Virus record (IMG/VR): IMGVR_UViG_3300012930_000006
Location: 1 to 54,978 of that record
DNA: 54,978 nucleotides
Strand: one strand, 5' to 3'
Source: a virus
Shown: piece after piece, positions 1,398 to 20,944 of the stretch
Position numbering within the stretch: position 1 is the first letter of the stretch
Layout of the letters: every line of letters begins with the position of its first letter
The notes under the pieces: generated by a model
The model's input: the letters and a program-made list of their open reading frames with translations, nothing else
Told to the model about the DNA's origin: nothing
The model's database searches: none
Translations under genes and position numbers: made by a program

Positions 1398-1775
1398 GTG
1401 GCCGTATACTTTATTCAGGATGTCGATAGCGGATATGTAAAGATTGGTCATGCCGCAGACCCGTCAGCGCGTTTTGTAGATTTGCAATGCGCCACACCTC
1501 ATTGTCTGCAGTTCATCAGAATTGTTGATGGCGGGCAAAAAGTTGAAACATGGTTTCATCGGAAGTTTGCCAAATACAGAATTCGTGGTGAGTGGTTTAA
1601 TTTTGCCGAAGACATGCTGACAATTGCGGCGCCGGATGAAATACCTAAAAGAAACGATGAGCCTATCATGCAATACAGGTCGCTCGGCGCGCGCTTGCGG
1701 GCGGCTAATGCGCTCGGGTTGCTTTCGGAGCAGATGAAGCGTGACTATGCTCCTCTGCTGAATAGCAACGCATGA
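1398..1775 (+). CDS. GIY-YIG nuclease domain protein (T5orf172/GIY-YIG-like)
   Basis: 125 residues. The N-terminal segment has the GIY-YIG layout: VYFIQ at 3-7, then YVKIG, an R (ARF) and, further on, ETWFHRKF and GEWF, as in small phage GIY-YIG nucleases. Such proteins cleave DNA and often behave as homing endonucleases. GTG start at 1398 with GGAG nine bases upstream. Base composition is clearly more AT-rich than the genes around it, a sign of recent arrival. Its stop overlaps the next gene by four bases. Catalytic activity is inferred from motif order only. Confidence 0.78.
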   Translation: MAVYFIQDVDSGYVKIGHAADPSARFVDLQCATPHCLQFIRIVDGGQKVETWFHRKFAKYRIRGEWFNFAEDMLTIAAPDEIPKRNDEPIMQYRSLGARLRAANALGLLSEQMKRDYAPLLNSNA

Positions 1776-3112
1776 CTGCACATCCTGCCAAACTCGACGA
1801 AACCCGACTGCTGATCCAGCAGGGTCATGGCGACCGTTTCATCGCCGGCCATTTCAAGATCACGCGCCACGCCGCGCGCAGCCTGATCAACGAGGCAAAG
1901 CTCGCGAATGCCGGCGCCATCGCGATCATTCCCGTTGGCCCGACCTCGCTGCTCGCCCGCTACGATGCCGCTTGTGTGGCGCTCGCCGCCGCCGTCAAGG
2001 CCGACGAGGTGATGACGATCCGCCTCGAAGCCAAGGCGATCGAAGCCGTGGCGCGCGTTGCCAAAAACTTCGATCTCGAAATCGACGCCATCAAGCTTCG
2101 TACCAAAGCTGAAACCCGCTTGGGCGCGATGCTCGAAGAAGGCGAACGTACCGGCATCGTCGCCGCGCGCGGGCGCCCCCGCAAGGTGGAAAAAGATTCC
2201 GCCTCGGAATGTTTTTCACCCGCCACCCTCAAAGAAATCGGCGTCGATCCTAAGCTCTCGGCTCATGCCCGTCGGCTCAACGGCATCGGCGCGCGCGCCG
2301 TCGACATCATGCTCACGCGATTCGGCGAGGAAAGCCGCACCCGCCGCCGTCCCGCGCTCGACGTCATCCACGACGCTACGGCCCAGCGCAGCGCAGAAAG
2401 CCGTCGCAACCTTGCCCGCGAGCTTTCGGACTGTGCCGCGCTGCATCCGACGGGCCGAAAATTCCCGATCCTCTATGCCGATCCGGCTTGGCGCCGAAAA
2501 GCCGGCATCGGCAATCGAGCCTATGAAAACACCTACACGACGATGGATTGGAACGCGATCATTGCAATGCCGGTCGCACAACGCCTCCTTCCCGACGCAT
2601 GGGGCTTTATCTGGGTTCCGCGCGCCCACATGCTCGCGCTGCACGCAGTCGAGATCGACACACCGCTTGGCCGCACGACCGTCAAGCTGCCGCTGATCTG
2701 GGCCGTCGCGCAAGCCTGGGGCTTTGACGCCTATTCGACGTGCTTCGTATGGACAAAGACGGACGAAGATCGCCCCGAAGATCACGGCACCGGTCTCCTC
2801 GTATGGGATCAAGACGAGATTTTGTGCATGTTTAAGCGTGGTCGCGGCTTGCCAAAGCCTGATACGGCCGAGAAAGCCGGATCGAATCACCGTGAACGCT
2901 CGGCTGGGCACTCGGCAAAGCCCATATATTACCGCAACATGATTAACGCCATGACCGGAGGATTGCCTGTGCTTGAACTATTTGCGCGAGAGGATGAGTC
3001 ACACCAATTGCCTCCTAACTTTTTTACTTGGGGTAATCAGTCTCGAAATAGTGCAGAGATCATCGACGCTCAAACCGGCGAAATACTCGAAAAATCCACT
3101 GAGGCCGCATGA
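1772..3112 (+). CDS. MT-A70 family DNA adenine N6-methyltransferase with N-terminal helical domain
   Basis: 446 residues. Residues 1-45 could form a helix-turn-helix (GHFKITRHAARSLINEAK); 60-125 is the RYDAA helical segment seen in phage MT-A70 proteins; 225-425 is the methyltransferase. Motif IV reads LYADPAW at 234-240, so the usual DPPW is DPAW. The late segment GHSAKPIYYRN ending LELFARE matches the family's C-terminal S-adenosylmethionine-pocket region. It probably methylates adenine in phage DNA and could protect against restriction. ATGA overlaps at both ends place it in an early operon. Effect of the P-to-A change on activity is unknown. Confidence 0.88.
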   Translation: MTAHPAKLDETRLLIQQGHGDRFIAGHFKITRHAARSLINEAKLANAGAIAIIPVGPTSLLARYDAACVALAAAVKADEVMTIRLEAKAIEAVARVAKNFDLEIDAIKLRTKAETRLGAMLEEGERTGIVAARGRPRKVEKDSASECFSPATLKEIGVDPKLSAHARRLNGIGARAVDIMLTRFGEESRTRRRPALDVIHDATAQRSAESRRNLARELSDCAALHPTGRKFPILYADPAWRRKAGIGNRAYENTYTTMDWNAIIAMPVAQRLLPDAWGFIWVPRAHMLALHAVEIDTPLGRTTVKLPLIWAVAQAWGFDAYSTCFVWTKTDEDRPEDHGTGLLVWDQDEILCMFKRGRGLPKPDTAEKAGSNHRERSAGHSAKPIYYRNMINAMTGGLPVLELFAREDESHQLPPNFFTWGNQSRNSAEIIDAQTGEILEKSTEAA

Positions 3113-3591
3113 AAGCACCAGCCCGCATCGTCACATGGCTCGCAGCTCGCATGCTCCGCTTGGAACGCGAGCGCCGTCCAGACTTCGTCATCGGAAAGCC
3201 CGGCAGCGATTACTTGCGACGCTGGTTTGTCATTCCCCGTAATAAGGTTTTCAACGTCTACCTGCATAGGTTTATCCGCTCGGACGACGATCGCGCCTTG
3301 CACGATCATCCGTGGCTGAATTGCTCGCTCCTTCTCGACGGCGAGTACACCGAGCACACCATCCCGCAGGGCGGCATCCACCAAAGAAAACGCTATGTGG
3401 CCGGCGACCTCAAGTTCCGCGGTCCGCGCTATGCGCACCGTGTTGAGCTGACCGCCGGCCCATGTCTCTCGCTATTCATCACCGGCCCGCGCGTGCGCGA
3501 CTGGGGCTTTCATTGCCCGGCCGGCTGGCGCCGATGGCAGGATTTCACGGCGCCGCACAACAGCGGCGAGATCGGGCCGGGGTGCGATTAG
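3109..3591 (+). CDS. cupin-fold protein
   Basis: 160 residues. The pattern LHDHPW near residue 68, a Gly-rich turn, then YAHRVEL near 118 gives the His placement of a one-domain cupin (RmlC-like) that could hold a metal ion. The ending RDWGFHCPAGWRRWQDF is strongly aromatic and typical of a small phage-associated cupin family of unknown substrate. The start overlaps the methyltransferase stop (ATGA). It might modify a nucleotide or sugar, but nothing here proves that. Confidence 0.7.
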   Translation: MKAPARIVTWLAARMLRLERERRPDFVIGKPGSDYLRRWFVIPRNKVFNVYLHRFIRSDDDRALHDHPWLNCSLLLDGEYTEHTIPQGGIHQRKRYVAGDLKFRGPRYAHRVELTAGPCLSLFITGPRVRDWGFHCPAGWRRWQDFTAPHNSGEIGPGCD

Positions 3592-3594
3592 CTC

Positions 3595-4005
3595 ATGACA
3601 AGTTGGCGCGAAATAGATCGCATCCGCAAGGACGCGACGGCTTTCCGCGAGATAGCCGCTCGACTTCTCGCAACAGAGAGCAGCGACCTTACTGAATGGG
3701 AAGAGGCATTCCTCGAAAATTTCAAGCGCGATACTGACAAGCGAGAATTTTCGACACGTCAAGCCGAGAAACTCTTGCAGATTCGGGACGACGCCGAGAT
3801 AGTCCGGGATTGGCGCGGGTTCAGCGTGGCCACGCTGCTTCGCAAGGCGTGGGAAATGCGATCGGACCTATCCGAGGCCGACGAGGAATGGCTTTCGACG
3901 CTTCGAACACAATGGTCCGACAGCGTCAAGCGACGTGCTCTGTGGCGTCTCGTGCGTATCGGAAAAGAACTAGACCTGATTGAGAGGGGAGACGAGACAC
4001 CGTGA
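3595..4005 (+). CDS. hypothetical helical protein
   Basis: 136 residues, highly charged and predicted all-helical. Two similar blocks are visible: LLATESSDLTEWEEAFLENF (about 23-42) and RSDLSEADEEWLSTLR (about 90-105), each an L-(T/S)-E-x-E-E-W/F unit, suggesting an internal duplication. It ends with a four-base overlap (GTGA) with the replication protein gene and may be a replication accessory protein. No family recognised. Confidence 0.7.
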   Translation: MTSWREIDRIRKDATAFREIAARLLATESSDLTEWEEAFLENFKRDTDKREFSTRQAEKLLQIRDDAEIVRDWRGFSVATLLRKAWEMRSDLSEADEEWLSTLRTQWSDSVKRRALWRLVRIGKELDLIERGDETP

Positions 4006-4784
4006 GCATTCAAGCCGTCGGGTGGGTTCTTGATCAGCGAGACCTACCACCCAAACCCAAGATGGTGCTGATCGCCATAGCCAACCATGCCGATCATACC
4101 GATGGTCACTGTTTTCCTCGACTGACCACACTGGCGCGTGAGGCATCAATCAAGGAACGGAGCCTATACCGCTATATCGGGGCGCTCATACGCAACGGCT
4201 ATCTCCGCAAGCAAGAGCGTCGCGGAGACGACGGTCGACGGCGCGCGACGGACTATTGGATTCTGTTCGAGCGCATTTCCGCGCCGTGGGATTGGGGCGC
4301 GATTGTGCCAGATGAAGATGATACCGACCCACAAGATGTGGTGTCTCCACCTGCCAAATTGGCAGGTGGTCTCGACCCCCCGACCGATCGGTCCACCTGC
4401 CATTATTTGGCAGGTGGACCACCTGACATAGTTGGCAGGTCATTAGATGAACCATCAGAGTCTAATCCATCACAGGAAGAGGAGTCCGAAGACGAACGTT
4501 TCGCCCAACCGCCAAGGACTTACACGCCACCACCCATAGAGCCTATGGGTGCGGTCATCGATCAGAAGGCGAAGCAGATTTTCGTGATCGAGGGAACTCG
4601 AGCATGGAAGGCGTGGCTGGTTTTCAAAAAACGAGAGAAGGGGCGTTCGTGGAACTTGGTCACGAGCGCGAAGATTGGGAAGGTATACAAACGCGGCTGG
4701 TATTTTCCGAGCCTGTTCCCTCCCGGCCAGCAACCCCAAGAAGGGCTGACCGACGAAGATGTCAACGCATTCGCCAATGGCTAA
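4002..4784 (+). CDS. replication initiator-like protein (winged helix, origin inside gene)
   Basis: 260 residues. Residues about 15-75 form a winged helix of the phage replication/DnaD-associated type (PKPKMVLIAIANHAD, then LTTLAREASIKERSLYRYIG). A long polar linker, about 95-175, follows, then a C-terminal domain about 178-260. The linker DNA carries three palindromes (4347-4440). This mirrors lambda O, where origin repeats lie in the O gene and bind O. The protein would open the origin and recruit the host helicase; no phage helicase, primase or polymerase is present. GTG start at 4002 with GTGA overlap. Confidence 0.78.
   Translation: MSIQAVGWVLDQRDLPPKPKMVLIAIANHADHTDGHCFPRLTTLAREASIKERSLYRYIGALIRNGYLRKQERRGDDGRRRATDYWILFERISAPWDWGAIVPDEDDTDPQDVVSPPAKLAGGLDPPTDRSTCHYLAGGPPDIVGRSLDEPSESNPSQEEESEDERFAQPPRTYTPPPIEPMGAVIDQKAKQIFVIEGTRAWKAWLVFKKREKGRSWNLVTSAKIGKVYKRGWYFPSLFPPGQQPQEGLTDEDVNAFANG
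4347..4440. promoter_or_regulatory. three iterated palindromes, likely replication origin
   Basis: Dyad 1 (4347-4369): 11-bp arms CCACCTGCCAA/TTGGCAGGTGG around one base. Dyad 2 (4390-4402 and 4408-4420): 13-bp perfect arms around TTATT. Dyad 3 (4421-4440): ACCTGACA/TTGGCAGGT with one mismatch. All share the half-site ACCTGCCA. They lie in the disordered-linker part of the replication gene, where coding constraint is weak, and a more AT-rich stretch follows from 4441. Repeated dyads in an initiator gene are the classic look of an origin; alternatively they could be an operator cluster. Confidence 0.65.
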
Positions 4785-4800
4785 TCCCCAGGAGCCCGCA

Positions 4801-5405
4801 TGACCCATCCCGGAAACATGGCCGATGTCTACGCCGCCTCCACGGCCGATTCGATGCGCCGCCGCGAACTCATCGGCCCGCTCGACGCTGACCTCGCCGC
4901 GCCCGCCGGCGCATGGCACGTCGCCGTGACCGAGCCCGCGCGCGAGCGCACCGCGGCCGCGCATCTCGTCGGCCATCGGTTCGGGATCTACCTGCCTGAG
5001 GCGGTCGAGACCACGATCAGCCGAGGCCGGAAAATCACCGCCGCGCGGCCGCTGCTGCCCGGCTATCTGTTCGTGTTCACCTGGGGCATCGCGCAGCACT
5101 GGCGCCGCATCTGGGCGACGCCAGGCATCGTCGGCATCCTCGTGAACGACGGCCGACCAGTCGTGGTTCCGGATGCCGCGATCGACGAGGTGCGCGCCGA
5201 GGAGAATCGCCAACGCCCGCTGGTGATCGACGATTGGGGCTGGCGCCGCCGCGGCCGCCGCCGGCAGTGCCGCAAGGAAAATCACCAGCTCGACGCCCAC
5301 GAAATTGTGGCTGTCCACGCCTATTCGGCATGGCGGGAGCTTTTCGTGCTTGACGAACCCAATCGGAATCAGCAATTCTTGCGGGCGATGGGACTCGCCT
5401 CGTAG
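4801..5405 (+). CDS. NusG-like transcription elongation/antitermination factor
   Basis: 201 residues. A NusG N-terminal domain is clear: AWHVAVTEPARERTAA, the central YLPE and RGRKI segments, LLPGYLFVF and PGIVGILVNDGRP. A basic stretch WRRRGRRR follows and the C-terminal part could be a degenerate KOW-type domain ending RNQQFLRAMGLAS. Such proteins ride on RNA polymerase and change its response to terminators. AGGAG (4790-4794) precedes the ATG. It is the last early gene, followed by two terminators and then the late genes, exactly where lambda has Q. I infer that it switches on late transcription. Confidence 0.85.
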
Positions 5406-5520
5406 CCGCCTGCAAGGGTGGGGCTCGGCGGTGTCGGCTAGAGCCCGCAGAACGGTTCATAAACCGGTGGGCGCGCTGGCAGCGCATACAGCAACGGATC
5501 AGTATCGCGTGAACGCTGCA

Positions 5521-5560
5521 GAGCCTCGGTGCCCCCTCACCGAGGCTCTTGCCTATTTAT
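5521..5560 (+). terminator. intrinsic terminator after early operon
   Basis: GAGCCTCGGTG (5521-5531) pairs perfectly with CACCGAGGCTC (5538-5548) around CCCCCT, followed by TTGCCTATTT. It lies about 115 bp after the NusG-like gene. Confidence 0.8.
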
Positions 5561-5627
5561 AGGAGGGCGATTCCAGGATCTCGGATCGACCTCTTGCTTT
5601 CTTGGCTACAATCCCCTCTTGATGACT

Positions 5628-5657
5628 GGGCGGCGGATCACACCCGCCGCCCCTTTT
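5628..5657 (+). terminator. second tandem intrinsic terminator
   Basis: GGGCGGCGG (5628-5636) pairs with CCGCCGCCC (5644-5652) around a 7-base loop, then CTTTT. With the terminator about 100 bp upstream it makes a double barrier between early and late genes, which an antiterminator would have to override. The stretch 5406-5692 otherwise contains no gene. Confidence 0.85.
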
Positions 5658-5692
5658 CCTCGCAATGGAAATGTGGTAGTTTGCGAGCACTA

Positions 5693-5746
5693 TGGAACTT
5701 GACGAAATCGAGTCGGATATGATTCCGAATGATTCCCATGCCTGAG
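5693..5746 (+). CDS. possible 17-residue leader peptide before terS
   Basis: The frame MELDEIESDMIPNDSHA is acidic and ends 18 bases inside the proposed small-terminase start region. Translation of it could couple to, or compete with, that gene. There is no strong ribosome-binding site, so this is tentative. Confidence 0.25.
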
Positions 5747-6337
5747 GTGGAACGCACCGCTTGCGGACGCATCCCAAATTCGCCGTTGCGAAATCCGCGG
5801 CATGAGTTGGCGGCGCACGCCTACGTGCAGGGCAAGACCGGCCGGGAAGCCGGGTTGGCGGCCGGCTACAAGGACGGGCCCGGCCTCAAGGGCAACATGG
5901 CTCGACTGCGCCAGACGGCGGAAATGTGCGAGCGAATCGGCGAGGTCGCGCAGCGGTCAGCCGGACTTGCCGAGATCCATGACGGATGGCTACTCGCCGA
6001 CGTCGCGATGTTCGCGCGCGCTTCGATCGCGCCGTTCTGCAAGCGCGATGCGGAAGGAAAAATCGAGCTTCAAAACGGCCTGCCGGTCCTCGACTTCGCG
6101 CATGCGACCGAGGAAAACTACCGGCTGATCGAGGAGCTTAGCCATACCAAGTTCGGTCCCAAGCTCAAGGTGCATAAACCGATCGAGGCGCTCGACAAGC
6201 TCATGCGCCATCGCGGCCTGATGCGAGACAAGGTGGCCCTGACAGATCCGAGCGGCGAGAGGCCGGCGCACTACGTGATTTCGGATCGGCCTTTGTCTGA
6301 CGAGGAATGGGAGCGGGATCGAACAGGTGCGGCGTGA
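5729..6337 (+). CDS. terS: terminase small subunit
   Basis: 202 residues. The opening region (PRHELAAHAYVQGKTGREAG, then LAAGYKDG) is a helix-turn-helix of the small-terminase type that selects phage DNA for packaging; the middle helices (VAQRSAGLAEIHDGWLLADV) would support ring assembly. It directly precedes the large subunit and overlaps it. The start may be ATG 5729 or ATG 5738; neither has a strong Shine-Dalgarno. It is the first gene of the late region after the tandem terminators. Confidence 0.82.
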   Translation: MIPMPEVERTACGRIPNSPLRNPRHELAAHAYVQGKTGREAGLAAGYKDGPGLKGNMARLRQTAEMCERIGEVAQRSAGLAEIHDGWLLADVAMFARASIAPFCKRDAEGKIELQNGLPVLDFAHATEENYRLIEELSHTKFGPKLKVHKPIEALDKLMRHRGLMRDKVALTDPSGERPAHYVISDRPLSDEEWERDRTGAA

Positions 6338-7830
6338 CGCCGGCGTTGAAAGTCACGCATCAACGCCTGTGGTCGCCGCAGCCTGGTCCTCAAGACGATT
6401 ATTGTTGTTGTCCGTGCCCCGAGGTCTTTCTTGGTGGCGCGCGCGGGGGCGGGAAGACTGACGGCGTTCTCGGCAAGTGGGCGATCAAGGAACGCCGCTA
6501 CGGACAGCACTTCAACGCGATCATGTTCCGACGCACCTCGGTTTCGGCCGAAGACGCGATCGAGCGGTCGAAGGAAATCTACGGGCCGTTGGGTGGAAAG
6601 TTCGATAGCTCGAGGTTGCGTTGGCGTATGCCAAACGGCGGACGCACGAGCTTTGCTTATCTTGAATCGGACGAGGACGCGAACGAATACCAGGGCCGAA
6701 ATGTCACGGACGCGTGGGTCGAAGAGGCCGGCCAATATCCGACACCGAAGCCGATCGACAAGCTATTCGGTGTGCTCCGATCTGCGCATGGTGTTCCTAT
6801 CCAGCTCACGTTGACGGCCAACCCGGGCGGCTCTGGACAGCACTGGATACGCGATCGTTACAAGTTGCATCCGTTCCCACTCAAGCCGCAGCTACTTCGC
6901 CGCACCTTGCCTGACGGCACGATCCACCACACCGCGGTCATCCCGTCGCGGATCACGAACAATCGGATCTTGCTCGAAAACGATCCTGGCTACGTGTCGC
7001 GGCTTCACCTCGTCGGGTCTGAGCAACTCGTCAAAGCCTGGCTTGAGGGCGACTGGACCGCGATCGAGGGCGCGTTCTTCTCGGAGTGGTCGGAGAGAAA
7101 GCACGTCGTTTCGCCGTTTTCCATTCCAGGTTCATGGCTTCGGTTCCGTAGTGGAGACTGGGGTTCGTATTCGCCGTTCTCGATCGGCTGGTGGTCGGTC
7201 GTCGGAGACGACATGCAGATCGTGCAGGGCGATCGTAAGATGACGCTGCCGCGTGGCGCGCTGGTTCGTTATCGCGAGTGGTACGGCGCCGTCGGCGGCA
7301 AGCTGACAGCAGAACAGGTCGGTCAAGGGATCGTCGATCGGGAGAGCGATGATCGCGCCAAGCTCACCTACGGCGTCCTCGATCCGTCGGCCTTCAAGGA
7401 AGACGGAGGCCCGTCGATCGCCGAGCGCATCAACAACGTTCTTTTGCGTGAGAAGCTTGCGGCGTTCACGGGTGCCGACAATGCCCGCGTCGCACGCGCA
7501 GCCGGAGATCCGCAGAAGGGCGGCCCGATGGGCGGTTGGGACCAGATGCGGGCTCGGCTCAGGGGCAACGGCAAGGAGCCGAACAACGTGCCGATGCTGT
7601 ATTTCTTCTCGACGTGTCGTGATTCGATCCGAACCATTCCAGTCCTGCAACACGATCCCAAGCGAGCCGAGGATCTCGACACGGACGCAGAGGACCACGC
7701 CGCCGACGATTGCCGGTATGCCTGCATGTCGCGCCCGTGGGTCAAACAACCGCCGGCCGACAAGGATCTCAAGAAAGACCCCTACCGCGAGTCCACCGAC
7801 GACCGGATGGAATCGTTCGTGACAATTTGA
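6334..7830 (+). CDS. terL: terminase large subunit
   Basis: About 498 residues from GTG 6334, which overlaps the small-subunit stop (GTGA); an ATG at 6307 is an alternative start. It is the packaging ATPase and nuclease. Walker A GGARGGGKT lies about 42 residues in, and a Walker B-like segment DAWVEEAG near 120. The nuclease domain shows acidic positions in FRSGDWGS, GVLDPSAF and DAEDHAADD. A Cys cluster, YCCCPCPEVF, stands just before Walker A and is unusual. Product is confident; exact start is not. Confidence 0.93.
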   Translation: MTPALKVTHQRLWSPQPGPQDDYCCCPCPEVFLGGARGGGKTDGVLGKWAIKERRYGQHFNAIMFRRTSVSAEDAIERSKEIYGPLGGKFDSSRLRWRMPNGGRTSFAYLESDEDANEYQGRNVTDAWVEEAGQYPTPKPIDKLFGVLRSAHGVPIQLTLTANPGGSGQHWIRDRYKLHPFPLKPQLLRRTLPDGTIHHTAVIPSRITNNRILLENDPGYVSRLHLVGSEQLVKAWLEGDWTAIEGAFFSEWSERKHVVSPFSIPGSWLRFRSGDWGSYSPFSIGWWSVVGDDMQIVQGDRKMTLPRGALVRYREWYGAVGGKLTAEQVGQGIVDRESDDRAKLTYGVLDPSAFKEDGGPSIAERINNVLLREKLAAFTGADNARVARAAGDPQKGGPMGGWDQMRARLRGNGKEPNNVPMLYFFSTCRDSIRTIPVLQHDPKRAEDLDTDAEDHAADDCRYACMSRPWVKQPPADKDLKKDPYRESTDDRMESFVTI

Positions 7831-8021: not shown

Positions 8022-9321
8022 TCTGCCATCGGCGGTTCTCGGCTTTGCGCTGATGGTCGCGTTCGTCCCGGGTTGGGGCGGGCTTGCGACGACGCCACGT
8101 TGGGATCTCGGCGTCATCATGGCGCTGGCGCTGTTTGTCGCGCCGGCCCGCCGGCTGACCGCGGTCGATGGTCTTGGCCTCGCGCTGATCGCATGGCTCT
8201 GCTTGTCGATCGTGTGGAGTTCGTCGCCGCTCGACGGGATCGATACGGCGCTCAAGTTGTGCTTAATCGTCGTCGCCTTCGGCCTTGGCGCCTCGATCGA
8301 CAATCCGCGTCCGCTGATCGCCGGCGCCGCGATCGGCATGGCGATCTCGAGCGTTCTGGCGGTTGCGCAGTGGTACGGTTGGGACGGCGTCATCACCATC
8401 CCGGGAGTTTCATCTGATCTTCTCGACGGATGGGACAGAGTCGTCGCAAGAAACGGCGCGCCGTCGGGCTTGTTCTTCGGCCGCGACCGTCTCGGTGAGA
8501 CTGCGGCGCTGGTGCTGGCCGGCGTGATCGGACTGCGGATGTGGTGGTCGATCGGCCTCGTGCTGCCGGCGCTGGTGCTGGCGCAGGAGCGCAACGCGTG
8601 GCTCGCGGCCGCGGTGATCGTTCTGATCGCGATATGGCAACGCGGCCGGACGTTCGAACGGTTTGTGATTGTGGCGATCATGATCCATGGCGCGTTGTTC
8701 ACCTTGATCGTCTCGACTGGTGTCGATGTGCCGTGGAAAATGGCATCTCTGGTCGAGCGCGTCGTGATCTGGAAATTTACAATCGCAAACCTGACATGGC
8801 TTGGTCATGGGCTCGGATCGTTCATCGTAGACGGTCCAGTCATGGCTTGGTCGGTCTCTCCTGGTTCCGATCTCGTTAACATGACGCGCGTGGAGCATCC
8901 GCACAATGAATGGCTCTGGCTTGCTTATGAGGGGGGAGTGGCCGCCGTCGGATTGGGCGCGGCAATTGCTCTGGCAATCGGCCGATGCGTATCACGGTGT
9001 TCCGGTCACCTTGGTCTCGTCCTTGTCGCACTCTTCGTCGTCTCGCTCTTCGCGATGCCATTTCATGATCCGGCTGCGGTCCTTCTGTCGGCTCTTGTCG
9101 CGGGGCATCTTGTTGGCGATCGTGTGCGGCTTCGCGCTGCGGCTGTCTCTGGCCGAGGTGCACTATACGCGGGGGTGGTCGCAGGACGATACGGTCGAAG
9201 CCAACCTTACGGAACTCACCCGGGCGGCGGAATTGTACCCATTCCTGCGTCGGTTTCGCGAAGGGCCGGCCGTGCGGTTGAGGTCGAGGCAGGCGGCGCC
9301 GAAGGGGCGATGACCGTCTGA
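8005..9321 (+). CDS. O-antigen ligase/polymerase-like membrane protein (Wzy_C type)
   Basis: 438 residues with about ten hydrophobic segments and a large extracytoplasmic loop holding HPHNEWLWLAYEGG, a signature-like segment of the Wzy_C/O-antigen ligase family, whose members join glycan chains to lipid carriers or lipid A. A phage copy could change the host surface and block superinfection. The last about 70 residues are polar. GTG 8005 is the likely start; ATG 8053 is possible. It sits oddly between terminase and portal genes and its stop overlaps the next ATG (TGATG). Function is inferred from topology and one motif region. Confidence 0.75.
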   Translation: MPTLRDLPSAVLGFALMVAFVPGWGGLATTPRWDLGVIMALALFVAPARRLTAVDGLGLALIAWLCLSIVWSSSPLDGIDTALKLCLIVVAFGLGASIDNPRPLIAGAAIGMAISSVLAVAQWYGWDGVITIPGVSSDLLDGWDRVVARNGAPSGLFFGRDRLGETAALVLAGVIGLRMWWSIGLVLPALVLAQERNAWLAAAVIVLIAIWQRGRTFERFVIVAIMIHGALFTLIVSTGVDVPWKMASLVERVVIWKFTIANLTWLGHGLGSFIVDGPVMAWSVSPGSDLVNMTRVEHPHNEWLWLAYEGGVAAVGLGAAIALAIGRCVSRCSGHLGLVLVALFVVSLFAMPFHDPAAVLLSALVAGHLVGDRVRLRAAAVSGRGALYAGVVAGRYGRSQPYGTHPGGGIVPIPASVSRRAGRAVEVEAGGAEGAMTV

Positions 9322-9638
9322 TGGCCTCTACCTCAACAAGCCCCAACAACGCCACGGTGAAATTCCGCGGCAATACGGAGCGCGAGATGCCGCCCTTTCC
9401 TAAGCCCGTATCGAAAACGCAGAACGCGGCCATGCACGCGGCTGCGGCAGGCAAGTCGACGATCGGGATTCCGAAGAAAGTCGGTGCCGAGTTCGCCAAA
9501 GGCGCGGCCGGCAAGACGCTCAAGGGATTGCCCGAGCACAAGCCGTCCCGGCGCGCCCGAAAGCATGCGCGCAAGATGGCGAAGCGCGGCATGATCTCTG
9601 AGAAGGCGATGAAGGATCACATGGGCGGGGATTACTGA
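9321..9638 (+). CDS. small basic late protein with shared C-terminal tail (copy 1)
   Basis: 105 residues, Ala/Lys/Arg-rich. Its end, KMAKRGMISEKAMKDH, is the first of five occurrences in neighbouring proteins of the tail K/R-R-G-x-I-S-x-K-A-x-x-x-H/M. The rest shows no known domain; the middle (GKSTIGIPKKVGAEFAKGAA) is basic. It overlaps the upstream membrane-protein gene and the downstream microgene by single TGATG junctions. It could be a capsid cargo protein or substrate of the ATP-grasp enzyme; both are hypotheses. Confidence 0.75.
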   Translation: MASTSTSPNNATVKFRGNTEREMPPFPKPVSKTQNAAMHAAAAGKSTIGIPKKVGAEFAKGAAGKTLKGLPEHKPSRRARKHARKMAKRGMISEKAMKDHMGGDY

Positions 9639-9742
9639 TGCCGATCGAAGAATGGGAAGACTACGACGACAATCCGTAAGACGATCCTGACGCGTGGCGC
9701 GACGTGTGTAACGATCCGGCGAGGGAAGATTGTTCGGCATGA
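9638..9742 (+). CDS. acidic micro-gene interrupted by in-frame TAA
   Basis: The frame begins with a TGATG overlap and reads MPIEEWEDYDDNP, then TAA (9677-9679), then continues in the same frame DDPDAWRDVCNDPAREDCSA to TGA 9740-9742, which overlaps the next ATG (ATGA). Composition stays acidic across the stop and both outer boundaries use the overlaps typical of this phage, so the 34-codon frame looks like one unit. The TAA could be a recent mutation, a sequencing error or a read-through site; only the first 13 residues may be made. Confidence 0.5.
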
Positions 9743-9960
9743 CTGTTAAATCGACTACAACTGTTCGATGCTCTTCGACGATTGCCCAAAGGATAGGCGC
9801 GACAGTTTGTGCGGAAAAAGAACTATCGGAACGTGGAAATTCTGGACTTACATTCAAGAACTTTAGAGTCGATCCATTAGATGGTCCGAATGTTTTTGTG
9901 TTTTGGAAATGGCCGGTAATACATCCGGATGATGGTAAAGAATATTGGGATCCGCATTGA
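9739..9960 (+). CDS. hypothetical protein
   Basis: 73 residues ending PDDGKEYWDPH, with an aromatic stretch NVFVFWKWPV. Base composition is more AT-rich than its neighbours. Start chosen from the ATGA overlap with the preceding frame. No family recognised; no signal peptide. Confidence 0.65.
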   Translation: MTVKSTTTVRCSSTIAQRIGATVCAEKELSERGNSGLTFKNFRVDPLDGPNVFVFWKWPVIHPDDGKEYWDPH

Positions 9961-9967
9961 GGTCGGT

Positions 9968-11296
9968 ATGAACTATCGATCCAAAACAGTATTGGTCTAC
10001 GACCACGGCCTCTTCGTCGAGATCGCGCGCACGCTGTCGAAGTCCTTCGGCCGCGTACTTTACTACTCCCCATGGGAGACGTCCGCGCCGAAGTCGAATG
10101 TCCGCTGCGTCGGTGAAGGTATCGACGAGATCGAACGGGTGGCGAGCATCTGGCCGCATGTCGACGAGGTTGACTTGTTCGTGTTTCCCGACGTGTTCGA
10201 AGGTGCACTGCAGGAATATCTCGTCAAGATCGGTAAGCGCGTATGGGGCTGCCGCATGGGCGAGGAGCTTGAGCTTGACCGCACCGCATGCAAGGAGCAC
10301 TGCGCCGGTCTCGGCATTGATATCGGTCCGTACACGACACTGAAGGGACTCGACGCGCTGCGCTCGCATCTCAAACGCCACAAAGACCAGTTTGTGAAGA
10401 TCCCGTATCTCCGCGGCGACATGGAAACCTTCAAGGCCGACAACTACGAGCTGATTGAGCCGCGGTTGAACGAACTCGCCGACAACTTTGCCAGCAAGAC
10501 CATGGAGTTCATCTGCGAAGAGGAAATTCCTGACGCGATCGAGGTCGGTTACGACGGGTACACGGTCGACGGTAGGTTTCCGAAAGAGGGTATCGTTGGT
10601 GTGGAATGCAAGGACCAAGCGTATGTGTGTGCGGCGATGCCGTACCGCGACATGCCGGCGTCGGTGCGAAGCGTCAACTCAAAGCTCGCAAGCACGCTCA
10701 AGGATTACAGCTATCGCGGCTTCATCTCGACCGAGATACGTGTTTCTCCGGACGGAAAGGCATACTTGATCGACCCGTGCGCGCGTTGCGGATCGCCGCC
10801 GTCGGAGCTCTATCAGATGATGATCGGTAATCTCGCCGATGTTCTGTGGGAGGGCGCCGAGGGAATCCTGATCGATCCGGAACTGATCAAGCCGTTCGGC
10901 GCCGAGTTGCTGCTGATCTCCGAATGGGCCGACAAGAACTGGCAGCAAGTCGACTTTCCGGCCTCGATCCGCGAGCACGTCAAGCTGCGAAACTTGATGA
11001 TGATCGACGGCGAATACTACGTGGCGCCGCAATCGAACGGAACGACGGCGATCGGCGCCGTGGTCGCGATGGGCGACACGCAAGAGGAGGCGATCGAGGA
11101 GTGCAAGCGCTTGGCCGAGATGGTCGAGGGCTACTCAATCGAGAAGCCGATCCAGGCACTCGACAAGGCGGGCGAGCAATTGACGGAAATCCTTGCCGAC
11201 CAGAAACCCAAGTCGAAGGCCGAACGCAAGGTCGAGAGCCTGTCGCGCCGCGGCATAATCTCCGACAAGGCACTTCGCAAGCATGTGACGGTCTGA
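9968..11296 (+). CDS. ATP-grasp ligase-like protein with shared C-terminal tail (copy 2)
   Basis: 442 residues. The layout is an N-terminal alpha/beta domain, then an ATP-grasp core resembling phosphoribosylamine-glycine ligase: FVKIPYLRGDMETF (ATP-binding strand and loop), a central segment FISTEIRVSPDGKAYLIDP and CARCGSPPSELYQMM, where acidic metal ligands lie. ATP-grasp enzymes join a carboxylate to an amine through an acyl phosphate. The last 30 residues form a separate basic tail with SLSRRGIISDKALRKH, shared with four neighbours. ATG 9968 has GAGG upstream; 9929 is an alternative. The substrate is unknown. Confidence 0.82.
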   Translation: MNYRSKTVLVYDHGLFVEIARTLSKSFGRVLYYSPWETSAPKSNVRCVGEGIDEIERVASIWPHVDEVDLFVFPDVFEGALQEYLVKIGKRVWGCRMGEELELDRTACKEHCAGLGIDIGPYTTLKGLDALRSHLKRHKDQFVKIPYLRGDMETFKADNYELIEPRLNELADNFASKTMEFICEEEIPDAIEVGYDGYTVDGRFPKEGIVGVECKDQAYVCAAMPYRDMPASVRSVNSKLASTLKDYSYRGFISTEIRVSPDGKAYLIDPCARCGSPPSELYQMMIGNLADVLWEGAEGILIDPELIKPFGAELLLISEWADKNWQQVDFPASIREHVKLRNLMMIDGEYYVAPQSNGTTAIGAVVAMGDTQEEAIEECKRLAEMVEGYSIEKPIQALDKAGEQLTEILADQKPKSKAERKVESLSRRGIISDKALRKHVTV

Positions 11297-11297
11297 C

Positions 11298-11513
11298 ATG
11301 AACGACGTGTCAAACGATATGCCTCCGTCGAATATGACCCGGGCAAACATCACCGGGAAGGTCACACAGACCGAGATCCATCGTGGCCGTCGCGGTAAGG
11401 TCAAGCGCGTCAAACTCGAGCAGCACCAGAAAAGCCACGTCAGGCAGTTGCAAAAGCGCGGACAGATTTCGCCGAAAGCGGCGGCCAGCCACGGACTGCA
11501 GGGGAAAAAGTGA
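11298..11513 (+). CDS. small basic late protein with shared C-terminal tail (copy 3)
   Basis: 71 residues. A short variable N-terminus precedes a basic stretch (HRGRRGKVKRVKLEQHQK) and the tail QLQKRGQISPKAAASH. The gene begins two bases after the ATP-grasp stop and its own stop overlaps the next ATG (TGATG). Strong positive charge would allow binding to nucleic acid. No known domain. Confidence 0.72.
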   Translation: MNDVSNDMPPSNMTRANITGKVTQTEIHRGRRGKVKRVKLEQHQKSHVRQLQKRGQISPKAAASHGLQGKK

Positions 11514-11674
11514 TGCCCAGCGTTGATATCGAGACCAGCACGCAAGCGCCACCAAAGAATCCGCCGCGCGGCGTCAACACGAAGAAAAACTTTGCCATGC
11601 GGAAGGCGAGGAAACTCGCCAAGCGCGGCATCATCTCGCCGAAGGCGCTGGCGAAGATGGGCACGGAGGATTGA
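11513..11674 (+). CDS. small basic late protein with shared C-terminal tail (copy 4)
   Basis: 53 residues. The N-terminal half is polar and Pro-rich (ETSTQAPPKNPPRG); the second half is basic and ends KLAKRGIISPKALAKM plus GTED. It is the simplest member of the five-protein tail family, little more than a linker plus the tail, and so a good candidate for a bare substrate or targeting peptide. TGATG overlap with the gene before; a structured RNA candidate follows six bases after the stop. Confidence 0.7.
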   Translation: MPSVDIETSTQAPPKNPPRGVNTKKNFAMRKARKLAKRGIISPKALAKMGTED

Positions 11675-11679
11675 CAGCG

Positions 11680-11793
11680 GTGCGACTGAAACAGGGCTAT
11701 CGTCTAAAGCTATAAGACGCCCGAAAGGGAAATCCGGGTAGCGACAAAACCCGGTAGTCCGACCCTCTCCGGATGGGGACAGAGCAGTCGCAC
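11680..11793 (+). ncRNA. candidate structured RNA, closed by 9-bp helix
   Basis: GTGCGACTG (11680-11688) pairs perfectly with CAGTCGCAC (11785-11793). Inside lie CGTCT/AGACG (11701-11705/11715-11719), a CCC-GAAA-GGG GNRA hairpin (11720-11729) or an alternative GGG/CCC pairing with 11694-11696, CCGGGT/ACCCGG (11734-11739/11749-11754) and GTCC/GGAC (11757-11760/11777-11780). The result is a compact multi-helix junction of about 114 nt in the only sizeable gap of this cluster. It matches no RNA class I can name; it lacks hammerhead, HDV and tRNA features. It could be a riboswitch-like leader, a packaging-associated RNA or a processing element. Confidence 0.6.
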
Positions 11794-11824
11794 GGGGCGA
11801 GTCATGTTTTTGAGGAAAACCACC

Positions 11825-12094
11825 ATGGCCTATGATTCTCCGACCGCAACAATCGGTGGCAGCAAGCGAAAGTCGAAGTCCTACAGCCATCCCGATCGGG
11901 AGTGGGAAGTCCGCGACGCAATGCACACGATGATGCGTGCAGCCGAGATCGTCGCTGACAAGAAGCTCATGGCGCAGGTCAAGAAACACGCTGCCGAACA
12001 CGCCGCCAAGATGAAAGACGTGTCGTACCAGGCTGCGATGCTCGCCAAGGCTGGGCGCATCTCGCCCAAGGCAATGGCGAAGATGAGGCACTGA
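11825..12094 (+). CDS. small late protein with shared C-terminal tail (copy 5)
   Basis: 89 residues from ATG 11825, preceded by GAGGAAAACCACC; ATG 11804 is a possible longer start. The protein is helical (EVRDAMHTMMRAAEIVADKK) and ends MLAKAGRISPKAMAKM then RH. The tail differs from the other four by A instead of R before the Gly. The gene lies between the RNA candidate and the portal gene, separated from the latter by one base. Confidence 0.75.
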   Translation: MAYDSPTATIGGSKRKSKSYSHPDREWEVRDAMHTMMRAAEIVADKKLMAQVKKHAAEHAAKMKDVSYQAAMLAKAGRISPKAMAKMRH

Positions 12095-12095
12095 T

Positions 12096-14102
12096 TTGCC
12101 GCTGACCGAAGTCACATATGACCAATTGCAGCGTGCCGATTCGGCGCGACTGACGCCGCTTGTGTCGAGCGACGAGAAGGAGCCGGGAAACAAGCGCGAG
12201 GTGCCGACTGGAGACGAAGATGCCGCGCGGTATCTTTCTGTCCGAACGCTGCGCAACCAATTCCTCGACTACCTCACCAGCAAGGTAGACGAGATCGAGG
12301 AGCAGAAGGATGCGCGGCGATACTATCACGGCGCACACCTGACCGCCGATCAGTTGAGAATCCTCCGCGCGAGGCACCAGCCTCCGATCGTATGGAACCG
12401 GACCAACCGCAAGATCAACGGCATCGTCGGTCTGGTCGAGAAGATGCGATCGGATCCGAAGGCGTTGCCGCGCACACCGAAGAGCGAGCAGGGCGCCGAG
12501 ATCGCGACGCAGTCGATCCGCTACGTGCTCGACTGCAACGAGTGGAAGACGATCGATCCGTGGTGCATCCTGCAATCTGGCATAGACGGAATCGCCGGCA
12601 CGCAGCGGGTGCTCACGCACGACAAGAAGGGCAATTACAATCTCCGGCTTGATTGGGTGATCGGCGACGAATATTTTTATCAGCCGAAATCGTATCGTAT
12701 GGACTTTGCGGATTCCCGCTACGAGGGCCTCGCGAAGTGGCTTGATCTTGATGAAGCGATCGAACTGTTTCCCGAGCAAGAGGAGTTGCTCAATGGCCTA
12801 TTCGAGGGCGACAGTGATCTCACCACGAATCCCGATCGAGACATCAAATGGCTGATGACCTCGACTCGGCATCTTCGCCTCGTCGAGCATTGGTACAAGC
12901 ATCGCGGTCGATGGTGCTGGGCGTTCTATGTCGGCGCGGTGCTGATCGACCAGGGCGAGTCGCCATTCTTTGACGACGAAGGAAACTCGATCTCGTCGTT
13001 CGACATGTTCTCGGCCGCGGTCGATCAAGACGGAGACCGCTACGGTTTTGTGCGCAACCTTAAGGGCCCGCAGGACTCGCTCAACCAGGGCAAGTCCAAG
13101 ATGCTGCACCTCGCCAACACGAAGCTCCTCAAGGGCACAAAGGGCGTGGTCGACGACGTCGAGACCGCGAGGCGTGAGGCGTCCCGCCCGGACGGATATC
13201 TCGAGGTCAATCCTGGTGGCACGCTCGAGCTCGTACAAACGACGGCGGATCTCGCAGCGTTCTCGCAATTCACCGAGGACGCCAAGGCCGAACTTGATGC
13301 CTATGCGAATTCGAACATCGCAGCGATGACCGGCGCCGGCATGGCGAACATCTCGGGACGTGCGTTGGAAATCCTGCGCCAGCCCGGCATGGCAGAGCTC
13401 GGTCCATTCATCCTTGCGGTGCGCGGCTGGAAACTTCGTCTCTATCGCAACATCTGGAATACCGTGCAGCGCTACTGGACGGCCGAGCGATGGATACGCG
13501 TCAACAACAACGAAGGTCTGGGGCAGTTCATCCAATTGAACGGGCTCGGCCTCGACCAGAGCGGGTTGCCGTCGATCATCAATGCGGTCGGAGCGCTCGA
13601 CGTCGACATCATCCTCGAGGAGGGACGCGACATCGCGAGCATGATGGCGGACACCTCCGACGCGCTCAAGGGCTATCCGCCTGGAACGTTCCCGCCGCAA
13701 GTCCTCATCGAGATGTCGGATCTTCCGCGGTCGGAAAAGAACCGCATCATGCAGATGATGTCGCCGAAGCCGCCGCCGCCCGATCCCATGGGCGACCTCG
13801 CCAAGCGGCTGTCGCTCGAAAGCCTCGCCGGCAAGAACGCCAAGACGGCGGCCGAGACGGTCAAGACCCATGCGGGCGCGGAGGAATTACGGGCGAAGGC
13901 CGAGAAGGAGCGCGCGGAGGTCGGCACCGCGGCCGCGCGGGCGGGGCATCTCGCCAGTGCCGCCCACATCGATGCGGCCGAGTTTGCGCGTGACACATTG
14001 CTCGAGGCGCACAGGATCGCCAATCCGGAGCCGCCAGCCGGCGCGCCAAATGGTTCGCCGCAGAGATCGTCGATGCCGCAGCAATATCCGTTGCCGTTCT
14101 GA
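12096..14102 (+). CDS. portal protein (P22 gp1-like)
   Basis: 668 residues, the length usual for short-tailed phage portals. The N-terminal region (YLTSKVDEIEEQKDARRYYH, later PIVWNRTNRKINGIVGLVEK) and the core (GFVRNLKGPQDSLNQGKSKM) fit the P22-type portal family. The C-terminus is a long Ala/Glu helix, like the barrel of podovirus portals. Twelve copies would form the DNA gate and terminase dock. The start appears to be TTG 12096, one base after the upstream stop, with no better ATG nearby. Position after terminase and before scaffold and coat supports the call. Confidence 0.9.
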   Translation: MPLTEVTYDQLQRADSARLTPLVSSDEKEPGNKREVPTGDEDAARYLSVRTLRNQFLDYLTSKVDEIEEQKDARRYYHGAHLTADQLRILRARHQPPIVWNRTNRKINGIVGLVEKMRSDPKALPRTPKSEQGAEIATQSIRYVLDCNEWKTIDPWCILQSGIDGIAGTQRVLTHDKKGNYNLRLDWVIGDEYFYQPKSYRMDFADSRYEGLAKWLDLDEAIELFPEQEELLNGLFEGDSDLTTNPDRDIKWLMTSTRHLRLVEHWYKHRGRWCWAFYVGAVLIDQGESPFFDDEGNSISSFDMFSAAVDQDGDRYGFVRNLKGPQDSLNQGKSKMLHLANTKLLKGTKGVVDDVETARREASRPDGYLEVNPGGTLELVQTTADLAAFSQFTEDAKAELDAYANSNIAAMTGAGMANISGRALEILRQPGMAELGPFILAVRGWKLRLYRNIWNTVQRYWTAERWIRVNNNEGLGQFIQLNGLGLDQSGLPSIINAVGALDVDIILEEGRDIASMMADTSDALKGYPPGTFPPQVLIEMSDLPRSEKNRIMQMMSPKPPPPDPMGDLAKRLSLESLAGKNAKTAAETVKTHAGAEELRAKAEKERAEVGTAAARAGHLASAAHIDAAEFARDTLLEAHRIANPEPPAGAPNGSPQRSSMPQQYPLPF

Positions 14103-20431: not shown

Positions 20432-20944
20432 ATGGCGACTGCGCCAAGAACTTCGTCTGATATCAGGAACGAACCCGCGTCATTGCTGCCGCCGGCCACG
20501 ACCGCGCCTAAAGAGGTGGGGTCGCCCGCAGCCGACAAAAAAGGGGAATCCGAACACGTCACATACCTTCCCTCGGAAGGAGACCCGATCAAGACGACGT
20601 GGATGGGCATTACGTTTCATGCGAATGTGCCGAAAGAGGTGACCAATCAAGCCTTGATCGCCAAGGCCAAGCAGAACCGGTTTTTCAAGGTCGGTGATTT
20701 CAACCCGGCGCGGGACCGCGTATCAGTCGAGAATACGCCGTTGCCAAAGACGTCGGAGCAGTACCGCGCGCACGCCGTCGCTTGGATCAAGACGGTCGAG
20801 AGCGTCGACGATCTCGACACCCGATGGCAGTCCGAAGAGACGCTGCGCATGCACTGCGGCGTCGGCACCGACGACATCGAATGGCTGCAGGATTTCCTCG
20901 GTCCGAAGCGTCACGAGCTCAAGAGACGTGGATTGCCGGGGTAA
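20432..20944 (+). CDS. hypothetical head-tail region protein
   Basis: 170 residues. A Pro/Ala-rich N-terminus (about 1-45) precedes a compact domain containing TTWMGITFHANVPKEVTNQA and KAKQNRFFKVGDFNP. The middle stretch resembles small proteins that sit between coat and connector genes in other podoviruses, but I cannot name a family. AT-rich GATAAGAGGC precedes the ATG. The gene follows the terminator at 20374-20401. Confidence 0.7.
   Translation: MATAPRTSSDIRNEPASLLPPATTAPKEVGSPAADKKGESEHVTYLPSEGDPIKTTWMGITFHANVPKEVTNQALIAKAKQNRFFKVGDFNPARDRVSVENTPLPKTSEQYRAHAVAWIKTVESVDDLDTRWQSEETLRMHCGVGTDDIEWLQDFLGPKRHELKRRGLPG

Follow-up and report, generated by a model that had tools for sequence, protein, structure and literature searches.

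What switches on the late genes of this phage? The window, by which we mean the whole stretch of DNA that was analysed, is a linear IMG/VR virus record of 54,978 bases that may be incomplete. An initial annotation had placed a NusG-type factor at the end of its early genes, ahead of two strong terminators and the terminase, and had suggested that this factor turns on the late genes in the manner of RfaH, instead of a Q protein or a phage sigma factor.

A NusG paralog in the position of lambda Q

The ORF at 4800-5405 (+ strand) encodes 201 amino acids, has an AGGAG ribosome-binding site and starts 15 nt past the stop codon of the preceding gene. That gene (4002-4784, + strand) encodes an HTH_36, lambda-O-like replication initiator (PF13730, E=5.1e-13; phrog_270, phrog_8540 and phrog_391); an MT-A70 methyltransferase gene also lies upstream, and the NusG-like gene closes this replication operon. 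On the other side, the first gene past the terminators is that of the terminase small subunit (TerS; 5729-6337, + strand; phrog_51), followed by those of the large subunit (TerL; 6307-7830, + strand; PF04466; phrog_979 and phrog_2), the portal (at 12096) and head closure (at 20782), in agreement with the initial annotation. The NusG-like gene occupies a position like that of lambda Q, between the early genes and a terminated leader and before all late genes. The record, possibly incomplete, gave no match to the lambda Q families PF03589 and PF06530 or to sigma-70 region 2, consistent with the proposal that neither a Q protein nor a phage sigma factor is used. Elsewhere in the early operon (1772-3591), the methyltransferase gene is followed by that of a phrog_4786 protein annotated as cysteine dioxygenase, and two tRNA genes, Met(CAT) and Pro(TGG), lie at the left end of the record (179-331).

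Pfam assigned residues 38-131 of the product to the NusG family (PF02357; E=1.4e-12, 48.4 bits against a cut-off of 22.2), the sole PF02357 match in the whole 54,978-base record, and the nearest PHROGs family is phrog_6386, 'transcription antiterminator'. The AlphaFold2 model has an NGN fold at residues about 34-138, with a pLDDT of about 90, while residues 144-187 are disordered and the tail carries a short terminal helix. When the model was compared with the PDB using Foldseek, the top folds were RfaH and NusG NGN domains, RfaH being the best match. The protein is thus laid out as an NGN domain (38-131), a basic linker and a C-terminal tail without KOW. Its NGN domain makes it a member of the NusG/Spt5 superfamily; Pfam detected no KOW domain in it, and in this it departs from canonical bacterial NusG/Spt5.

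The scores of the protein were far below the cut-offs for RfaH (equivalog TIGR01955; 45.9 bits against 144.5), housekeeping NusG (TIGR00922; 25.7 against 135.7), LoaP (15.9 against 125) and UpxY (36.4 against 100), and we therefore regard it as a NusG paralog of its own kind. An alignment (A10) places it in a subfamily without KOW (30-43% identity); apart from L018, the other members come from phages bearing the suhB element described below. Tyr54 of RfaH aligns with Tyr89 of the window protein, which is invariant in 14/14 members of the subfamily; Tyr54 is reported to be required in RfaH, the Y54F variant showing activity not above background (PMC2871177). The same report describes K10 and R73 as needed for ops (PMC2871177). 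In our alignment these two ops-contact residues are replaced by E45 and P108, so that loading must differ from that of RfaH. The initial annotation had also advised looking for a recruiting sequence near the late promoter, and none could be demonstrated: ops-like sites with up to 2 mismatches number 64 in the window against 50.5 expected, near chance, and none stands out. One such 12-mer, TGTGGTAGTTTG, with 2 mismatches, lies at 5672-5683, 3' of the second terminator hairpin, and sites of this kind occur at near chance frequency in the window. We reject an RfaH ortholog acting at an ops site on the basis of the cut-offs, the residues and the site counts together.

Terminators and promoter search in the leader

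The noncoding leader between the NusG-like gene and TerS (5406-5728) contains two terminator hairpins on the + strand. Hairpin A (5519-5549) has a 12-bp stem (-25.4 kcal/mol, z -5.7) and the tail TTGCCTATTT; hairpin B (5628-5652) has a 9-bp GC stem (-21.6 kcal/mol, z -3.9) and the tail CTTTTCC. As none of 200 shuffles folded equally well for either hairpin, the two strong terminators announced before the terminase are borne out, with the limit that the T-run of A is weak; a simple terminator scan listed B alone and not A. Both stand in the same places as the terminators (T1 and T2) found in relatives, and the spacer between them (5550-5627, + strand), which has TATAGG soon after hairpin A, is where relatives carry a suhB/MmgR-like RNA.

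Taking fold and position together, we consider it probable that the gene at 4800-5405 encodes a specialised phage NusG paralog acting as the Q-equivalent, late-gene antiterminator. The factor would be the last product of the early/replication operon, and its NGN domain would bind host RNA polymerase as the latter transcribes the 5406-5728 leader. The polymerase would then ignore terminators A and B, and possibly Rho too, and read into the terminase and structural genes. We infer the binding to RNA polymerase, the antitermination and the place of loading from the arrangement of the locus. In this form the antiterminator of the initial annotation stands as the leading hypothesis, supported by a conserved slot, a conserved cassette and isolated phages, while its likeness to RfaH does not extend to orthology.

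An opposite action at the same hairpins can be imagined, with the NGN protein favouring termination or pausing at A and B and keeping the late genes off, since the NusG proteins of some bacteria are reported to be able to stimulate pausing or termination (PMC8060035). We consider this very improbable, because the closest characterised folds are those of RfaH, an antiterminator, and because a late-gene repressor produced at the close of the early operon would be less economical.

We also searched the 323-nt leader for promoters with a sigma70 matrix of the E. coli type, which other types of promoter would escape. No sigma70-type promoter above chance was found; the best score was 6.7 (p=0.58, 58% of shuffles being as good). 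A strong promoter past both terminators, which would have spoken against the proposal of the initial annotation, was therefore not seen at the sequence level, although a promoter of another kind could be missed. This result bears on a second explanation, that the late genes have their own promoter, that the terminators insulate early from late genes, and that the NGN protein does no more than aid RNA polymerase, by raising processivity or countering Rho, over the long late (or early) operon. RfaH-type factors are reported to serve long operons (PMC7593976), and in L003, a close terminase relative without PF02357, we noticed by eye a hairpin and then a promoter-like TTGACG/TAGCTT ahead of TerS. 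The window leader itself argues against a promoter of this type, as do the positional tie of the NGN gene to the terminator cassette and the promoter scores of the relatives, both described below, and we regard this explanation as unlikely.

The NGN gene before the terminase of other phages

Using the terminase of the window we collected the best 80 viral loci, and PF02357 was found in 12/80 of these records (12/50 in the first batch and 0/30 in the second). In 12/12 the gene lies upstream of TerL on the same strand, its stop codon 0.8-3.5 kb before TerL, and the proteins encoded are just 16-44% identical to that of the window. The other 68/80 lack an NGN gene, many of these records being fragments. 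The case of L002 is instructive: TerS and TerL are 79% and 81% identical to those of the window, and the same slot is taken by a very different NGN protein with a KOW-like end, its gene followed on the 3' side by a terminator-like hairpin. It seems, from this comparison, that the NGN gene of L002 is a module exchanged in place; Q genes in lambdoid phages are likewise swapped in place. The slot is not universal, since neither L003 (TerS 75%) nor L010 (TerS 69%) gave a PF02357 match and L003 has an apparent promoter of its own.

By eye, many relatives with an NGN gene in the same slot retain KOW-like domains. This weighs on a further explanation, that the NGN protein competes with host NusG, for host takeover or to relieve NusG/Rho silencing of phage DNA, and that it precedes the late genes just because it happens to end the replication operon. 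The KOW domain of NusG is reported to contact Rho and the ribosome (PMC7819879), and the window protein, in which KOW is absent, could be an anti-Rho decoy. However, the KOW-like domains of the relatives, and a slot kept across very divergent phages, argue against competition as the common function, and we judge it improbable.

A search with the window protein alone returned no phage match and no relative among viral contigs, and the three genome-contig matches have ORFs that do not resemble phage loci. Further loci were gathered by searching with NGN groups rather than with the terminase. In 21/25 of the loci found in this way (20 of the A5 set and 5 of the A3 set) TerL is downstream on the same strand, while 4 have no TerL hit; the downstream proteins tested were terminase large subunits in 10/10 cases, belonging to several PHROG families. 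The arrangement seen in the window is therefore kept in many phages. Just 3' of NGN in the A5 group there are matches to our model of the cassette described below that remain under threshold, with 9.5-14.3 bits (L114 6776-6878, L119 6709-6807 and L128 7648-7750); the spacers of this group look partly alike and may hold another conserved RNA.

The same order is found in isolated phages. In 5/5 isolates (Bradyrhizobium phages ppBdUSDA122-1, ppBjS10J-1 and ppBeUSDA76-1, Labrenzia phage vB_LagS-V1 and Microcystis phage vB_MweS-yong2) NGN is the final gene of the early cluster and is followed by the late genes. The order in ppBeUSDA76-1, whose NGN gene carries the annotation of an ABC transporter protein, is integrase, repressor, early genes, NGN, a gap, terminase and structure, and in the temperate Bradyrhizobium phages the NGN gene sits in the lambda-Q slot. 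In ppBjS10J-1 the interval from NGN to the capsid gene is annotated with hypothetical genes, with no named terminase there. The public annotation of one NGN gene (OP596613.1, 15032-15709; L280) is ABC transporter substrate-binding protein.

A suhB/MmgR-type RNA in relatives, and known late switches

Comparison of the DNA 3' of the NGN genes revealed a conserved noncoding stretch that is common to phages with unlike terminases. A pattern built from it matched 92 stretches in viral contigs, and PF02357 was present in 57/91 of the records (31/50, 20/29 and 6/12), the ninety-second, L005, being already positive. The corresponding figure is 12/80 in the terminase set, a few records being in both. 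A home-made profile found NGN upstream in 8/34 of the PF02357-negative pattern records, and some of the pattern matches without NGN look like chance hits. A covariance model of the element gave a match in each of the 47 NGN-centred loci (L228-L274). In 57/57 loci compared, some of them near-identical, the element shares the strand of NGN and lies downstream of it, at a distance of 35-890 nt (median 157), and TerL follows it on the same strand in 51/51 loci with an identifiable TerL; most of the 11 NGN loci of this set that have no TerL hit have less than 1.5 kb of sequence left. L006 has a tRNA-Thr gene (2931-3007) in the interval that separates NGN from the suhB-like element.

Pairing is kept in 96.2% of the cells of the alignment, which was fitted to the model, with 19 double changes against 5.1 in shuffles. 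Rfam identified the element as suhB/MmgR (RF00519), an sRNA family of alphaproteobacteria, over the gathering threshold in 10/10 loci submitted (46.9-70.6 bits), 6 from NGN phages (L132, L265, L269, L230, L261 and L007) and 4 without NGN (L152, L220, L221 and L208). MmgR is reported as an Hfq-dependent rhizobial sRNA tied to polyhydroxybutyrate storage (PMC7143759). The family is not detected everywhere in our loci: no suhB at gathering was found in L002, L018, L011, L013, L131, L133, L134, L044, L113 and L128. A cos or attP site was rejected as the nature of the element, because it is near-identical across unrelated terminases, inside the phage and far from the integrase, and it proved to be suhB. 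Its GCGGTAG was considered as ops-like and dropped, since its positions vary with their pairing partners.

Inspection by eye of the NGN phages showed a hairpin terminator (T1) 5' of the element and a second hairpin (T2) 3' of it, with a tail that is usually T-rich. Loci without NGN usually have the same core with no terminator upstream of it, its place being taken in several by a promoter-like sequence. Among loci with at least 1200 nt upstream, 41 have both NGN and T1, 11 NGN only, 1 T1 only and 17 neither, as counted with a detector that misses imperfect stems; the association gives a Fisher p=3.9e-8, a value that is too small since the loci are related and non-independent. There are no strong promoters around T1 in the suhB-bearing relatives, where the best scores with the E. 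coli-type sigma70 matrix are -1.4 to 9.0. Both results argue against late genes with a promoter of their own, and favour the NGN protein as late antiterminator.

The window shares with these relatives the order of the cassette, a similar spacing of the terminators and TATAGG after the first terminator. Homology of its spacer to the suhB element is plausible by eye and is not significant with Rfam, where RF00519 gives 15.1 bits at 5589-5667 (E=1.2, gathering 41) and no match at gathering in the window, or with our two covariance models of the element (7.3 bits with the first, 6.4 with the second). We therefore limit our claim to a shared architecture. A weak match to the Bradyrhizobiaceae sRNA BjrC80 spans both terminators (5512-5658; 19.6 bits against a gathering threshold of 80, E=0.1) and we make no claim from it.

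In the relatives, the suhB/MmgR-type RNA could act as the loading signal, could arise as a by-product sRNA when the leader is terminated, or could do both. A wider proposal, which we offer as tentative, is that these phages form a new class of late switch in which a NusG-paralog antiterminator, a 'Q by NusG', is joined to a leader cassette of terminator, suhB/MmgR-like RNA and terminator. A host core sRNA family would have been recruited either as a loading signal in RNA or DNA or as an sRNA freed on termination, like StxS, and the window would be a diverged version in which KOW was lost and the spacer drifted past recognition.

The locus resembles those of lambda Q, Q21 and Q82 in that the last early gene is followed by a terminated leader and then by all late genes, and in the exchange of the antiterminator gene between phages with common neighbours. 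Unlike them, it has a NusG-type NGN factor and no PF03589 or PF06530, no late promoter or Q-binding-like element was identified in it, and it has two terminators where lambda has one, tR'. With RfaH of E. coli and with NusG-SP, LoaP and UpxY it shares the NGN domain and, as proposed here, processive antitermination of one long operon; it differs from RfaH and the plasmid or operon NusG paralogs in that it is phage-encoded, adjoins the terminase and has not kept the ops-contact residues. Since the window protein is without KOW, it would have no RfaH-type fold switch of that domain. StxS is reported to arise from a transcript terminated at tR' in the lambdoid PR'-tR' leader (PMC7873438). Like StxS and neighbouring phage sRNAs, the RNA predicted in the relatives lies downstream of the gene for the late antiterminator, here a putative one, and ahead of the late genes, but it belongs to a host core family, suhB/MmgR, and is placed between two terminators beside a NusG paralog.

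The role itself is not new, since GafZ of the Caulobacter GTA, Pseudomonas AlpA and Xp10 p7 are described as proteins other than Q that act in a Q-like way on phage-type clusters (PMC7969949, PMC11150451 and PMC4513864); GafZ is reported to act with host NusG, NusA and NusE and, unlike the window protein, is not itself a NusG paralog. What appears to be new is the use of this type of protein for the role, together with the sRNA cassette: in the literature searched, which leaves most subscription journals outside, we found no account of a NusG paralog serving a phage as late antiterminator, nor of suhB beside one, and rfaH-like genes on prophages are mentioned in passing (PMC7593976). To our knowledge, a late-gene regulator is known in few phages of alphaproteobacteria. 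If our reading is true, a NusG-type factor stands in for Q across a wide range of phages from soil and rhizobia, and phage late control has evolved repeatedly out of different elongation factors. Its link to a host sRNA family is an unexpected viral side of MmgR/suhB, and both this link and the NGN switch can be tested in the cultured Bradyrhizobium phages ppBdUSDA122-1 and ppBeUSDA76-1.

Several further features of the late region were noted. The closest terminase from an isolate to the TerL of the window (6307-7830) is that of Pseudanabaena phage Pam5, with 60% identity, and the NGN relatives point to alphaproteobacterial hosts. At the start of TerS (5718-5745) there is a direct repeat, ATGATTCC, found also at TerS of L002 and partly of L010, with a variant in L003; in the window and in L002 the first ATG there opens a tiny overlapping frame (MIPNDS..). 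Between TerL and the portal (9321-12094), five consecutive ORFs have a common terminal motif, RGxISxKAxxK, with the instances MAKRGMISEKAMKDH, RRGIISDKALRKH, KRGQISPKAAA, KRGIISPKALAKM and KAGRISPKAMAKM. Similar motifs occur in small ORFs 5' of TerL in L011 and L018, and the motif could be a tag for head entry.
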